From: Pyrococcus horikoshii OT3 | GTDB taxonomy: Archaea; Methanobacteriota_B; Thermococci; Thermococcales; Thermococcaceae | Direction of reading: 5' to 3' | Assembly: GCF_000011105.1 (NCBI RefSeq) | Contig: NC_000961.1 | Coordinates: 1 to 64,000 of the forward strand | DNA length: 64,000 nucleotides | In this document: piece by piece, positions 32,808 through 58,959 of the stretch | Layout of the letters: each line of letters starts with the position of its first letter | How positions within the stretch are numbered: position 1 is the stretch's first letter | Notes under the pieces: generated by a model | The model's database searches: none | What the model was told of the DNA's origin: nothing | Seen by the model: the letters and a program-made list of their open reading frames with translations, nothing else | Made by a program: the position numbers and the translations under genes

Positions 32808-34081
32808 ACTTCACACTATTTTAGTTCTACGGAAACTAGAATCAAGGGGGTGAATAGCTCGAAGGAAGTCTGGGACATAGCATGTAATACAGCAGAAAAG
32901 GTTTGTTTCCACACTACTAAGTTCTACGGAAACGTGATTATCTTTATACAAGCGAACCACAAGATGACCAACTTTCCACACTATTTAGTTCTACGGAAAC
33001 GCTAGGGCATTACTAGAAAGAGCAAAAAGCAGGTACATCTTTCCACACTATTTAGTTCTACGGAAACAAGAAGTCAGGGATTTCATAAGAGACGAGGATT
33101 CTCAACTTTCCACACTATTTAGTTCTACGGAAACTCATAGCCATCGGCTGGCTTAGACGTAAGCCTGATTTCTTTCCACACTATTTAGTTCTACGGAAAC
33201 CTCACATTCCTCGAGCAGAACCCGCACTTACTCACCTTCTTTCCACACTATTTAGTTCTACGGAAACTTTGGCGATGATGGATCAGGAACAAAAGGACGC
33301 ATTCTTCCTTTCCACACTATTTAGTTCTACGGAAACAATACTATGAGTGCATAATTAGTATCGAGGTGATCTTTCCACACTATTTAGTTCTACGGAAACG
33401 TAAGGGAGGCTTTCGCGACGGCAATGGTTACATATAGCTTTCCACACTATTTAGTTCTACGGAAACCTTATAGACGGGAAAGAGATACACGTTATAAAAG
33501 AGCTTCTTTCCACACTATTTAGTTCTACGGAAACGCTATTGGAGCAAGGGAAATTCAGCTATACAGAAGACATCTTTCCACACTATTTAGTTCTACGGAA
33601 ACTGGAATAGTGTTATTGCTAGAGTTTTTAGTGGAATTGTTGAGACTTTCCACACTATTTAGTTCTACGGAAACGAGTTAAGAAGAGAGGCATTAATGTT
33701 TGCAGAATATCTTCTTTCCACACTATTTAGTTCTACGGAAACATGAAAGCAGAAACTTGGAAGAACATACTGTACATGTCAGCTTCTTTCCACACTATTT
33801 AGTTCTACGGAAACGAACGATGTTGATATGAAGTTCTCATGCCAGATTATCCTTTCCACACTATTTAGTTCTACGGAAACCTAGGGAATACCTAAGTGCT
33901 ACTAACTCAAGAACACTTTCTTTCCACACTATTTAGTTCTACGGAAACAGCTTAAATCACTGGGTTATGAGGTTGAACCTATGACCTTTCCACACTATTT
34001 AGTTCTACGGAAACTTACGAACTTCTTGAGTAAAGAAATCACGCAGGCAGGTCTTTCCACACTATTTAGTTCTACGGAAAC
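32808..34081 (-). CRISPR. CRISPR array, 19 repeats of 29 bases with 18 spacers
   Basis: On the plus strand the repeat begins CTTTCCACACTATTTAG and ends TTCTACGGAAAC. The sense strand is minus, where the repeat ends GTGTGGAAAG, the Pyrococcus crRNA handle type. Repeats start at 32808, 32905, 32972, 33039, 33106, 33172, 33239, 33308, 33371, 33438, 33506, 33574, 33646, 33714, 33786, 33852, 33920, 33986 and 34053. The first two are degenerate and mark the old, distal end. Spacers are 34-43 bases except the last interval (68). No cas genes are in the window, so Cas proteins must act in trans. Confidence 0.99.
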
Positions 34082-45575: not shown

Positions 45576-46259
45576 TCAAGTTTTTCTAACCACAAAGAGT
45601 GCGTGATCCTTCTCGTAGGGTTCCAAGTTAAGCCTCTCTATAACCTCAAAGTATTCGCTCAGCTCCCTCTCAACCTCCCTGAACACCTGCTCTGGCTCCT
45701 TTGTAACGTCAATGCTCCTGCTCTTAACGGCTATCATCCCGTAACCACCCCTCTTTAGGTATACTTCAGCATTGTCAATGAGTATCTTAGCCTGCGTTGG
45801 CTGGGCTACATCCTCAAATATAACGTCAACCTTAGGTACCAAAGCCCTGTATTCTTCCGGCTTAGTTGCATCCCCAAGGATTGGGACTATGTTCCTCCTC
45901 TCCTCAACTATAGGGACGAGCTCCCTAAGAACCCTTGGAGAAAATTCAATTCCAAATATCTTCCCCTCCCATCCAACTATGTCACTAACGTGAGAAGCCG
46001 TGGTACCGCTAGCAATTCCCAAGTAAAGAACGCTCTTTCCTGGTTTTATCGGGAAGTTTTTGAGCCCATTCATTATCGCTGCACCAAGCTTTGAACGGTT
46101 AGGGTTCCAAATCCTGTACTCCTCTCCTTCCCACTTTATAACCCTCTCCCCGTAAACCCTCTGTCCTGGGACTAGGTTTTTAGTTGCTATCCTCTCGCTT
46201 CCATCATCGTCAATAACTGTGTAAACACCAGGAAACTTATGCTTTTTTACCTCAACCAT
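45576..46259 (-). CDS. flpA: Fibrillarin-like rRNA/tRNA 2'-O-methyltransferase
   Basis: The 227-residue enzyme has the SAM-binding motif [21 protein letters not shown] (about 74-94), [14 protein letters not shown] and [10 protein letters not shown], with catalytic Lys in AVKSRSIDV. As the catalytic subunit of C/D RNPs it methylates the ribose that the guide RNA specifies, with Nop5 and L7Ae. It is placed immediately downstream of nop5 (six-base gap), the standard archaeal pair, in a window with several C/D RNAs. Confidence 0.98.
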
Positions 46260-46264
46260 TCAGC

Positions 46265-47470
46265 TCACCTCCTTCCACCTTTCTTCTTCTTTTTCTTCTT
46301 CTTTTTCTCCTTCCAGGGCTTTCTACCTTTTCTCTCCTCCTTCCTTCTCTTGGGTGGTCTTGGATACTTCTCCTTAATCTCTTTTATTCTAGCTTCCAAC
46401 TCCTTCTTTAGCTCTTCTGCAATGTATTCACCAGAGAAGTAATCAACTCTAGCAGCTATCGCCAATTTTCCAGCTAGAGCTCTAGCTATCTTACCCCTCT
46501 GCCACCATGGAGAGCGATTTATTGCAGGATACTGGTAGATTACTCCGTGCTTTGGCGGCTTTGCACCAGTTCTCAAGTGTCTAAATAGGGCCTTCTCCGC
46601 ACCTAAGACCTGAATCGTTGAGGATGGTAGCATGGCTAATTCTTTCAAACCGCCAGCTAGGCTTATGAGCCTTGCACCGAGCTTGGCCCCAACTAGGGCC
46701 TTTAGGTTTGGAGCGACGTCATCCATGGCCTTGTCTATGTAATCCTCGAGTTCTTTCCTCAGTTTGTAAAGTCTATCTATCTCCTCCGCGAAGTGTTGGA
46801 CGATTGCTATATCGGTTTCATCCATCCATGCTCCCATTGTCTTCTCTTTAGCCTCAATAATCTTTTTTATCTTTTCATCGCTTAAGCCGAGTTCTCTAAG
46901 CTTCTCTTCATCAACGTTATCCCTGTGTCCTATCGCCTTTACAAAAGCCACGTACTGTGGATGCCTGGGGAGGATCTCATCTAGTTCAGGGAAATGAAGG
47001 GAATACCACTCCCTCAACCTTGAAACGAGAAGGTTTATGACTTTATCAACATCATCCAATGCTTCTATGGCTTGGATTACCATCTTATCCCTCGCACCGC
47101 TCTGCTCTTGAATCCTCATCCTGGTCAAGGCAACGCCCACGTTGTAATAATCATCAAACCAATTCTCACCCAAGAACTCCTCTGGGTTACTTCTGAGCCT
47201 CTCTCCCGCTAGGTTTGGAAACTCCGTGGTGGCGTTAAAGCCGAGCTCCTTAGCCTTTCTACTCAGCTCTGGATGCTCAAATATGAACTCATCGTATCCC
47301 TTCTCCCTAAGCTCGTTAAGAAACTCCTCCAGATCCTTAACTAGCTCCCCCTTGAGAAGCCCGTCCAAGATCTTCTCTGGCTTATCTGTGAAGTACCTCT
47401 TCCCTACCAGCTTCCCATCCTCATCAAAGGCATAGATACCCCTGACATTTTCAGCAATAAATGCCCTCAT
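46265..47470 (-). CDS. nop5: Nop5 (Nop56/Nop58) C/D RNP scaffold
   Basis: The protein has the N-terminal fibrillarin-binding domain, a central coiled coil and the C-terminal Nop domain with VGAKLGARLISLAGGLKELAMLPSSTIQVLGAEKALFRHLRTGAKPPKHG (about 267-316). The tail ends in a run of nine lysines and GGRR, a disordered RNA-binding extension. Four start codons in a row (GTG ATG ATG ATG) precede RAFIAENVRG; the AGGTG site best fits the last ATG at 47470. It forms one operon with fibrillarin. Confidence 0.97.
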   Translation of the reverse strand: MRAFIAENVRGIYAFDEDGKLVGKRYFTDKPEKILDGLLKGELVKDLEEFLNELREKGYDEFIFEHPELSRKAKELGFNATTEFPNLAGERLRSNPEEFLGENWFDDYYNVGVALTRMRIQEQSGARDKMVIQAIEALDDVDKVINLLVSRLREWYSLHFPELDEILPRHPQYVAFVKAIGHRDNVDEEKLRELGLSDEKIKKIIEAKEKTMGAWMDETDIAIVQHFAEEIDRLYKLRKELEDYIDKAMDDVAPNLKALVGAKLGARLISLAGGLKELAMLPSSTIQVLGAEKALFRHLRTGAKPPKHGVIYQYPAINRSPWWQRGKIARALAGKLAIAARVDYFSGEYIAEELKKELEARIKEIKEKYPRPPKRRKEERKGRKPWKEKKKKKKKKKGGRR

Positions 47471-47555
47471 CATCATCACCTACCACTGCATTCAGCTCTA
47501 AGTATAAAAGAGTTGAGCTCTTAATTAAAAAGAGTATCGGAAGAAAAGGGAATAA

Positions 47556-48558: not shown

Positions 48559-48878
48559 CGGCGGCGGGCACGCCCGAGGGTGGGAACCCTCCACCGCCTC
48601 CTTTCACCAGGGCCTACCTCATCCCCGCACCCCCGCGAGCGTGCTCCGTGGCCCCTACCGCTGCTCCCTTCCGGGCCTTGCGGGGTTTGGGGCCCAAAGG
48701 GGGTTAGCACGGCCCTTCAGCCGTGCCTCCCCCACCGGGCACCCCGCGGGACGAGGACTCATCGTTCGGCCCTGGCTTCCAGAGGCGGCTTCGGGAACCG
48801 CCCCTCGGGCTTCGGCCCCGGCATATCGGCGGTTTCCGGTTACAGGGGACGCCGAACCCCCCGGCCTAGCCCGCCGCC
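48559..48878 (-). ncRNA. 7S SRP RNA
   Basis: This GC-rich 320-base segment in an AT-rich context folds end to end: GGCGGCGGGC at its 5' end pairs with GCCCGCCGCC at its 3' end. It contains the helix 8 landmarks GGAAGGGAGCAGC and the GTAACCGGAAACCGCC part of the Alu domain. SRP RNA binds SRP19 and SRP54 and targets membrane proteins to SecYE. The 5' end at 48878 agrees with a TATA box 27 bases upstream. Spurious long frames on the plus strand only reflect the GC bias. Confidence 0.96.
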
Positions 48879-49017: not shown

Positions 49018-49082
49018 AGGCAATGAGGAATGAATCCAATGCTGAGCTTAGGCAATGATTGGCCCCAGAGTGGCCGAGCCTT
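49018..49082 (+). ncRNA. Candidate C/D box guide RNA
   Basis: A box C-like ATGAGGA (49023-49029), D' CTGA (49042-49045), C'-like ATGATTG (49055-49061) and D CCGA (49074-49077) have the spacing of archaeal C/D RNAs. The flanks AAGGC and GCCTT can form the terminal stem. The guides are ATGAATCCAATG (before D') and GCCCCAGAGTGG (before D). Boxes C and C' deviate from the consensus, so this is the weakest of the five candidates. It abuts the stop of the ThiF-like gene. Confidence 0.5.
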
Positions 49083-54453: not shown

Positions 54454-55218
54454 ATGACAGGAGATATCGTCGAGTTCACGCTAAAGCTCGGAGGATTAGA
54501 GGTTGGCGAAGCCCCAAAGGAATTAAGAGAAGATCAAATTGCAATATTCTTAGCAAGGGTTTCAAATACCGTAAGACATGAGATTCCTAAATATTTACAG
54601 GAGAGAATAGACGTAGACAGAATGCTAAAGGAGCTAACTATCAATGGGGCATTAGAAGAAAAGTTAAAGAAGTTAAAATCTCCAGGAACATCGAGAAAAA
54701 TAAATAGCTACATCCTTGAAGATGACAGGAAACTTAAGAAGTTGCTCTTGGATGTTGCAAAGGTAATCCTAGTGTGGAACACCCTTAAAGATGACCTACC
54801 CATTGACTTTCCCGTTGGAAAGATAAGCGAGCTAAAGATAACCCCCAGATATAAGGAGGATCATATTAATTTTACGGCCAAATATGGAAGATGGATCGTC
54901 GTAAAAAGATTAATAATCGATGAGAAGACTCCAAAGCTTGACATAGCTAGACTTCTAGCAAGCATAAATGAGACTGCTGTAAACAAGATTCCCGAGTTCG
55001 CAGGCATAGATATAGGGAGAATTAGAGAGCATTTTAGGGACTTCAAGAAAGTTAAAAAAGAGGAGGAAATAAAAAGATTAATGGAAAAATTCAGGAGCTT
55101 TAAACCCACCAACGAACTTGAGGTAAGATACGCCATTAGCGAGATGATATCCAAGCTTGGATTGAGCATAGATATACCATCCAAGAACTTAGAGAAATAC
55201 CTTGAAAAAACGGGATGA
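54454..55218 (+). CDS. Conserved hypothetical protein, 254 aa
   Basis: No domain family is recognised. The sequence is soluble and highly charged, mostly helical, with repeated Lys-Lys segments (LEEKLKKLKSPGTSRKINSY, KVKKEEEIKRLMEKFRSFKP), a central strand pair (DHINFTAKYGRWIVVKRLII) and a C-terminal helix ending LEKYLEKTG. Basic patches suggest nucleic-acid contact, without further proof. The 3' end of the frame lies within the first box of a C/D guide RNA candidate, and the PrsW gene follows. Confidence 0.7.
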   Translation: MTGDIVEFTLKLGGLEVGEAPKELREDQIAIFLARVSNTVRHEIPKYLQERIDVDRMLKELTINGALEEKLKKLKSPGTSRKINSYILEDDRKLKKLLLDVAKVILVWNTLKDDLPIDFPVGKISELKITPRYKEDHINFTAKYGRWIVVKRLIIDEKTPKLDIARLLASINETAVNKIPEFAGIDIGRIREHFRDFKKVKKEEEIKRLMEKFRSFKPTNELEVRYAISEMISKLGLSIDIPSKNLEKYLEKTG

Positions 55219-55267
55219 GGAAGCCGAGGACACCTGAAGGATGATGACTCTTCGCTTCGCCGACCGG
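55211..55267 (+). ncRNA. Candidate C/D box guide RNA overlapping a stop codon
   Basis: Boxes are C ATGAGGA (55215-55221), D' CTGA (55234-55237), C' ATGATGA (55241-55247) and D CCGA (55260-55263), three bases between D' and C'. The guides are AGCCGAGGACAC (before D') and CTCTTCGCTTCG (before D). The predicted methylated partners would be in rRNA or tRNA segments containing GTGTCCTCGGCT or CGAAGCGAAGAG; I cannot place them. Box C overlaps the stop codon of the upstream gene, and the PrsW start codon follows ten bases later. Confidence 0.65.
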
Positions 55268-55277
55268 CGGTGATATC

Positions 55278-55991
55278 GTGGGAAACCTAACCACAATCTT
55301 ATACTTCGCATACGCCCCTGCTTTAGCATTACTTTGGTACTTTTATCATCAGGATAGGCTTGAACCTGAGCCAAAGAGGGTCGTTATAGGGACGTTTATC
55401 CTGGGAGGAACTCTCTCCGTTAGTGTAGCCTTAATTGTTGAGAGTCTCCTCGTTCCAAGATGGTTTCCAAGAATACCAGCATTGCTCCCCGCAACCTTCC
55501 TTTACATCTCTCTAATTGCAGGAATAGTAGAGGAGCCAGCCAAAGCGCTAGCAATAAAGTACGCTTATAACTCAGGCCACCTCTATGGAATAATGGATGG
55601 GGTTGTGTACGGCGTTGCAGCCGGGCTTGGATTCGCGGCCACTGAAAATTTACTCTACGGACTTGGATATGGAGTACATGTTACGATCCAAAGGGCTTTG
55701 CTGACTCCAATAGGTCATGCAACCTGGAGCGCAATAGTTGGAGTTGGGTATGGGTTAAAAGCCGAGGGAAAGGTATATACGCTCGCCCCTTATTTCACAT
55801 TGGCCGTGTTGCTCCACTTTCTATGGGATTACTATGCCTTTATGAGCAGCATATCTCCCGTATACTATGGAATCGTCCTCCTAATATTCACGATAAATGT
55901 ACTAATAATTAGGTGGTTGATAATTCTAGGGAGAAAGGAAGATATGGAAAGGTTCTGGTGGTACAGAATCTTAGGTGGGAGGAGATGGTGA
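55278..55991 (+). CDS. PrsW-family intramembrane protease
   Basis: The 237-residue protein has seven to eight membrane helices and the PrsW metal/active-site motifs: AGIVEEPAKALAIKY (EExxK type), GLGFAATENLLYG (ExxN), a His in PIGHATWSAIVGVGYG and another in LLHFLWDYYA. PrsW relatives cleave membrane-anchored regulators in bacteria; archaeal substrates are unknown. It starts with GTG 55278 and overlaps the following coiled-coil gene by seven bases, so that protein may be its partner. Confidence 0.9.
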   Translation: MGNLTTILYFAYAPALALLWYFYHQDRLEPEPKRVVIGTFILGGTLSVSVALIVESLLVPRWFPRIPALLPATFLYISLIAGIVEEPAKALAIKYAYNSGHLYGIMDGVVYGVAAGLGFAATENLLYGLGYGVHVTIQRALLTPIGHATWSAIVGVGYGLKAEGKVYTLAPYFTLAVLLHFLWDYYAFMSSISPVYYGIVLLIFTINVLIIRWLIILGRKEDMERFWWYRILGGRRW

Positions 55992-56197
55992 GGGAAGAAG
56001 TTGAAGAGGTATTAAAAGATGTTAGGCCCTACATAGAGTATTATAAGGAGTTAAGAGAGTTAATAGAGAAACTCTCAGGAAAAACGCTAAGCATATCTGA
56101 GCTAATAGAAGAGCTGAGAAAAGAAGAAGAGAAAGCCGAGGAACCTTTTAAAACCGATATTAGAATTTTAATTAATAAACTTGAAACCCTCAGGTGA
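55985..56197 (+). CDS. Small coiled-coil protein, 70 aa
   Basis: The product VREEVEEVLKDVRPYIEYYKELRELIEKLSGKTLSISELIEELRKEEEKAEEPFKTDIRILINKLETLR is nearly all charged helix and predicted to be coiled coil. The ATG at 55985 is preceded by GGTGGGAGG, so the longer frame to 55913 is not used. It is translationally coupled to the PrsW protease. The C-terminal codons coincide with an antisense C/D RNA on the minus strand. Confidence 0.7.
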   Translation: MVREEVEEVLKDVRPYIEYYKELRELIEKLSGKTLSISELIEELRKEEEKAEEPFKTDIRILINKLETLR

Positions 56198-56246
56198 TGC
56201 GGACGTCATCATTCGATCAGCCGGTTGATCCGTCATCATTGGTTAA
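56186..56246 (-). ncRNA. C/D box guide RNA antisense to a coding 3' end, targeting 16S rRNA
   Basis: On the minus strand the order is C ATGATGA (56239-56233), guide CGGATCAACCGG, D' CTGA (56220-56217), spacer TCGA, C' ATGATGA (56212-56206), guide CGTCCGCATCAC and D CTGA (56193-56190). All four boxes match the consensus. The first guide is the exact complement of CCGGTTGATCC at the very 5' end of archaeal 16S rRNA, so the RNA should direct 2'-O-methylation of U8 (E. coli numbering). It lies opposite the last codons of the preceding gene. Confidence 0.85.
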
Positions 56247-56299
56247 TAGGGGATAACCCCATAAAGGTTTAAGATACTGTCGGATAATAAATTAGGGAA

Positions 56300-56362
56300 C
56301 ATCCGATGATGGGAACAGGGTAGCTGCCGAGTTGATGAGGAAGCCGTTCCAGACTGAGGAAA
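56300..56362 (+). ncRNA. C/D box guide RNA
   Basis: Boxes are C ATGATGG (56306-56312), D' CCGA (56327-56330), C' TTGATGA (56332-56338) and D CTGA (56354-56357). The guides are GAACAGGGTAGCTG (before D') and GGAAGCCGTTCCAGA (before D), predicting methylation in targets with CAGCUACCCUGUU (at U) and UCUGGAACGGCUUCC (at the second G). I could not assign these segments. A CATTTTGTAAAAACC stretch and the small gene at 56412 follow. Confidence 0.75.
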
Positions 56363-58900: not shown

Positions 58901-58959
58901 GGAGATGATGAGCTTGGCCGCTACCCGAGTGATGAGGGCCAAACTCCGGTGCTGATCAC
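58901..58959 (+). ncRNA. C/D box guide RNA
   Basis: Boxes are C ATGATGA (58905-58911), D' CCGA (58925-58928), C' GTGATGA (58929-58935) and D CTGA (58952-58955). The guides are GCTTGGCCGCTAC (before D') and GGGCCAAACTCCGGTG (before D), predicting targets GUAGCGGCCAAGC (at the first C) and CACCGGAGUUUGGCCC (at the first G). The first resembles the CCAAGCGUUCAUAGCGAC region of archaeal 23S rRNA as I remember it. The 3' end overlaps the stop of the convergent glycogen synthase. Confidence 0.78.

Follow-up and report, generated by a model that had tools for sequence, protein, structure and literature searches.

The 64,000-nt stretch of Pyrococcus horikoshii OT3 DNA analysed here (contig NC_000961.1, positions 1 to 64,000, hereafter the window) carries on its minus strand a locus that can be assigned with high confidence to sR14, a guide RNA of the archaeal box C/D type that is predicted to direct 2'-O-methylation of native 16S U8 via its D' guide (Table 1). 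Archaeal box C/D sRNAs are recognised as RNAs of about 50-70 nt in which the boxes C (RUGAUGA), D' (CUGA), C' (UGAUGA) and D (CUGA) follow one another in this order. Here all four boxes are at consensus in a core of 50 nt, which reads ATGATGA-CGGATCAACCGG-CTGA-TCGA-ATGATGA-CGTCCGCATCAC-CTGA from 56239 to 56190. Such a minus-strand guide RNA with four consensus boxes had been proposed in a sequence-only reading of this DNA, and the proposal is borne out by the match to the Rfam family RF01145 (sR14), which scores 59.3 bits (gathering score 38; E 3.9e-13) and spans the whole model (positions 1-54 of 54), and by a strict C/D'/C'/D pattern, whose one match in the window is the sR14 locus. The boxes are short, and their chance assembly at the end of a protein gene, with no RNA gene behind it, could in principle produce a similar arrangement. 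The probability left to this explanation is negligible, given that the pattern is absent from 150 dinucleotide shuffles of the window, that the Rfam E value is as low as stated, and that the locus is conserved across genera in differing gene contexts, with an expressed orthologue; conservation by itself already refutes it.

Table 1. Positions of the sR14 gene, its elements and surrounding features within the window.
Feature	Position	Strand	Remarks
Box C/D sRNA sR14	56188..56243	minus	Rfam RF01145; C-to-D core 56239..56190
C box	56233..56239	minus	ATGATGA
D' guide	56221..56232	minus	CGGATCAACCGG, 12 nt; 11 nt pair with 16S nt 4-14
D' box	56217..56220	minus	CTGA
D'-C' spacer	56213-56216	minus	TCGA, 4 nt
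C' box	56206..56212	minus	ATGATGA
D guide	56194..56205	minus	CGTCCGCATCAC, 12 nt
D box	56190..56193	minus	CTGA
Convergent coiled-coil ORF	55913..56197	plus	94 aa; TGA stop 56195-56197 opposite D guide
A+T-rich spacer	56244..56301		between divergent sR14 (-) and sR22 (+)
Box C/D sRNA sR22	56302..56359	plus	RF01275; divergent from sR14, about 60 bp away
C/D sRNA sR45	55211-55265	plus	Rfam
C/D sRNA sR32	58901-58957	plus	Rfam
C/D sRNA sR46	49019-49079	plus	Rfam
SRP RNA	48562-48876	minus	
Fibrillarin and Nop5 genes	45576-47479	minus	

sR14 is an already known, ordinary RNA of a curated family, so that the gene itself adds nothing new. The P. horikoshii copy has the same boxes and guides as the Pyrococcus members of RF01145, and differs from most other members in having a D'-C' spacer of 4 nt instead of 3, and in an A instead of G before the C box. 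Gaspin et al. (2000) are said to list Pyrococcus C/D RNAs. A second genome match of the sR14 model, at 220696-220750, belongs to another family, sR49. Folding of the free sR14 strand revealed no unusual stability (z 0.18), a measure that is uninformative for C/D RNAs.

The D' guide is the part of sR14 with a convincing target. It forms 11 of 11 Watson-Crick pairs, with neither gap nor wobble, with nt 4-14 of the genome's own 16S rRNA (CCGGTTGATCC), so that the 11-base match to the 16S 5' end noticed from the sequence alone holds. The guide expected of a C/D sRNA, that is, an antisense match to rRNA or tRNA that abuts box D or D' and covers the fifth nucleotide, is thus provided by these 11 bp. 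The target CCGGTTGATCCTGCC has a single match in the P. horikoshii genome, which is the start of the 16S gene (contig 190978). Among 3000 shuffled D' guides, none equalled the real match on 16S, and 10 did so over the first 5 kb of the rRNA operon. Methylation takes place at the fifth nucleotide upstream of D or D' (PMC7089733), and the fifth guide nucleotide from D' pairs with native 16S U8; judged from the sequence, the D' guide would very probably direct the methyl group onto this residue. In the literature examined, neither direct evidence nor a published measurement of 2'-O-methylation at U8 was found. RiboMeth-seq data for P. furiosus exist in GEO (PMC7758197); in this method 3' read ends are lost over the first 20 nt, which leaves the 5' read ends as the informative ones at U8. 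The target had been given as U8 in E. coli numbering; U8 stands as the native position, and the numbering has to be corrected, because nt 8 of E. coli 16S is an A and native U8 aligns with E. coli U13, as revealed by the shared TTGATC motif and a free-end alignment. A global MAFFT alignment that placed native nt 8 on E. coli nt 8 was discarded as an end-gap artefact. The corrected position is mildly useful, as E. coli U13 is a member of a conserved base triple in the central pseudoknot (PMC3914948, whose text is inconsistent on the third partner). The H/ACA guide RNA Pab19 lies just upstream of the 16S gene (L033:239-340), about 135 bp before the 16S start.

The proposed mechanism is that of a canonical guide RNP. 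sR14 would fold into a k-turn at C/D and a k-loop at C'/D', and would be bound by L7Ae, Nop5 and fibrillarin. Its D' guide would then pair with 16S nt 4-14, allowing fibrillarin to 2'-O-methylate native U8, the equivalent of E. coli U13 and a residue of the central pseudoknot. As for the host machinery, the fibrillarin and Nop5 genes are located in the window itself, and L7Ae, the k-turn binder, is described as universal in archaea (PMC5539422).

Conservation argues for the same assignment. Of the family's 94 genomes, 74 have a match to the sR14 model and 77, all nine Pyrococcus genomes among them, contain the pattern made up of the C box, D' guide and D' box. The pattern had no match in the other 17 genomes, several of which are incomplete assemblies, and a looser search in these 17 returned only scattered partial matches. 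The commonest variant of the D' guide, GGATCAACCGG to GGATTAACCGG, keeps the pairing as a G-U wobble, and the 16S target is exact in 20 of 20 genomes checked. Outside the family, the only match found was one with two mismatches, from a different family that belongs to the same class. In the Rfam control set, Sulfolobus acidocaldarius has a match too. In genus g5, the gene context of sR14 is quite unlike that of Pyrococcus, and the open frame of a HAD-like hydrolase starts inside the sR14 gene on the same strand (L015:818-1525 (-); also L013, L014, L016, L017 and L026).

The orthologue in T. kodakarensis, located by the sR14 model at 316134-316188(-), coincides with sR15 of PMC9014305. The 16S start of the genome searched (G023), at 2022867, is in agreement with the rRNA coordinates of NC_006624.1 in that paper. 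This 62-nt RNA (316130-316191), whose start site was placed at 316202 by earlier work, is represented by 1,629,229 aligned small-RNA reads and by 698 circular reads, a number that dropped to 8 in the RNA ligase mutant (PMC9014305). Given these read counts, the orthologue is a real and abundant RNA. Stable small-RNA expression is thus documented for the T. kodakarensis gene, and sR14 of P. horikoshii would be expressed by analogy. Both RNAs share the same D' guide, and the T. kodakarensis RNA (sR15 / Tko-sR16), which is expressed and partly circular, differs in having its own D guide, CATCGGTCTTGT, a D' box that reads CCGA and a different gene neighborhood.

The D guide behaves differently from the D' guide. 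Its sequence, GTCCGCATCAC, is invariant in eight Pyrococcus sequences, while in the Pyrococcus genome G011 it is replaced by CATCAGCCTTGG, with its best site at native G861 (E. coli 902), and in Thermococcus and genus g5 genomes the D guides are ATCGGTCTTGT-like or GGTCCAGGAGG-like. Since D guides differ in this way across lineages, the second arm has been replaced while the D' arm stayed. Across Thermococcaceae-family genomes, one guide of this RNA is thus held fixed, and the other has undergone at least two replacements.

In P. horikoshii, the D guide has no exact complement in the genome beyond its own gene, and a tRNA or 5S target was discarded, as no good match was present among the scanned tRNAs or in 5S. 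On rRNA it scores best at native 16S U775 (E. coli U820), with a match of 9 bp that includes one G-U and leaves the two first positions unpaired, and that extends up to 10 bp in relatives. It could be argued from this that sR14 is a double guide, also methylating U775 and thereby linking two remote regions of 16S as the rRNA folds. For archaeal sRNAs, pairs of widely spaced targets have been proposed (Dennis et al. 2015, PMC4644070), and sR14 resembles such RNAs in that each of its two guides may bind its own region of a single rRNA; it differs from them in that its D' target alone is convincing. U775 (U776 in G007) is the best-scoring site in all seven Pyrococcus genomes with the GTCCGCATCAC guide, with one tie, the pairing in G004 reaches 10 bp (p 0.02 on 16S and 0.07 on 5 kb of rRNA operon), and the differing D guides of other lineages often have their best sites in 16S. 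However, the Pyrococcus guides are of common descent and are therefore not independent tests, and 48% of shuffled D guides equal the 9-bp match of P. horikoshii over 5 kb of the rRNA operon, which makes it not significant. Methylation of U775 by a double guide is accordingly a tentative reading, to which we give somewhat less than an even chance. The data are suggestive of a D guide that probably addresses a second 16S site differing between lineages, and this second target is only a suggestion because the share of shuffled guides that do equally well is 48% for P. horikoshii and 7% for G004. A bolder and rather unlikely extension makes sR14 a folding chaperone whose second arm can be exchanged: the ancient, fixed D' guide would mask and methylate the central pseudoknot of 16S on its 5' strand (E. 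coli U13), and a fast-swapping D guide would reach a different 16S segment in each lineage (E. coli ~820, 902, 511).

Some nucleotides of the D guide double as the stop codon of the convergent 94-aa coiled-coil ORF, and this second duty may help to keep the guide constant in Pyrococcus. This arrangement had led to the suggestion that the sRNA lies opposite the last codons and stop of the coiled-coil gene and could act as an antisense transcript on its mRNA. The first part is correct in that the stop codon faces the D guide, although the overlap with the sR14 core is just 8 nt (56190-56197). The second, according to which sR14 would be, also or instead, a cis-antisense regulator of this ORF, is very improbable. 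Seven of eight Pyrococcus loci have an overlap of 15-16 nt (57-nt frame), which, like the opposed stop codon, could be taken in its favor, but the eighth locus, that of the Pyrococcus genome G008 (L008), has none, and at the Thermococcus and genus g5 loci examined, where the sRNA is present, the convergent gene was not found. The conserved and substantial mRNA overlap, independent of any other function, by which cis-antisense RNAs are recognised is thus missing, and the 8 nt shared with the core include the D box, which would be covered by the RNP. Overlap of snoRNA-like genes with gene 3' ends is, moreover, ordinary in a compact genome and common in Thermococcales, since 16 of the 17 antisense snoRNAs of T. 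kodakarensis are so placed (PMC4247193). Antisense regulation was consequently rejected as the main reading, its context not being conserved, and the locus is best described as that of the guide RNA sR14. As to the ORF itself, it follows a PrsW-like protease gene (55278-56197 (+) for the two together). The listed GTG probably lies upstream of the true start of the ORF, because the part conserved in Pyrococcus begins at about residue 29.

On its other side, sR14 adjoins the divergent sR22 in all eight Pyrococcus loci examined, including that of G011, and sR45 lies about 1 kb from sR14 in the same eight loci. The A+T-rich spacer between sR14 and sR22 presumably holds the promoters of both genes. 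In P. furiosus, promoters that work in both directions from a single TATA box are documented (PMC6640164), and sR14 and sR22 may share one such promoter. Together with sR22, sR45, sR32 and sR46, sR14 makes up a group of five C/D sRNAs within 10 kb, close to the SRP RNA and the fibrillarin-Nop5 genes. Elsewhere in the window, a CRISPR array with 29-base repeats (Rfam CRISPR-DR41) occupies 32905-34081 (+).
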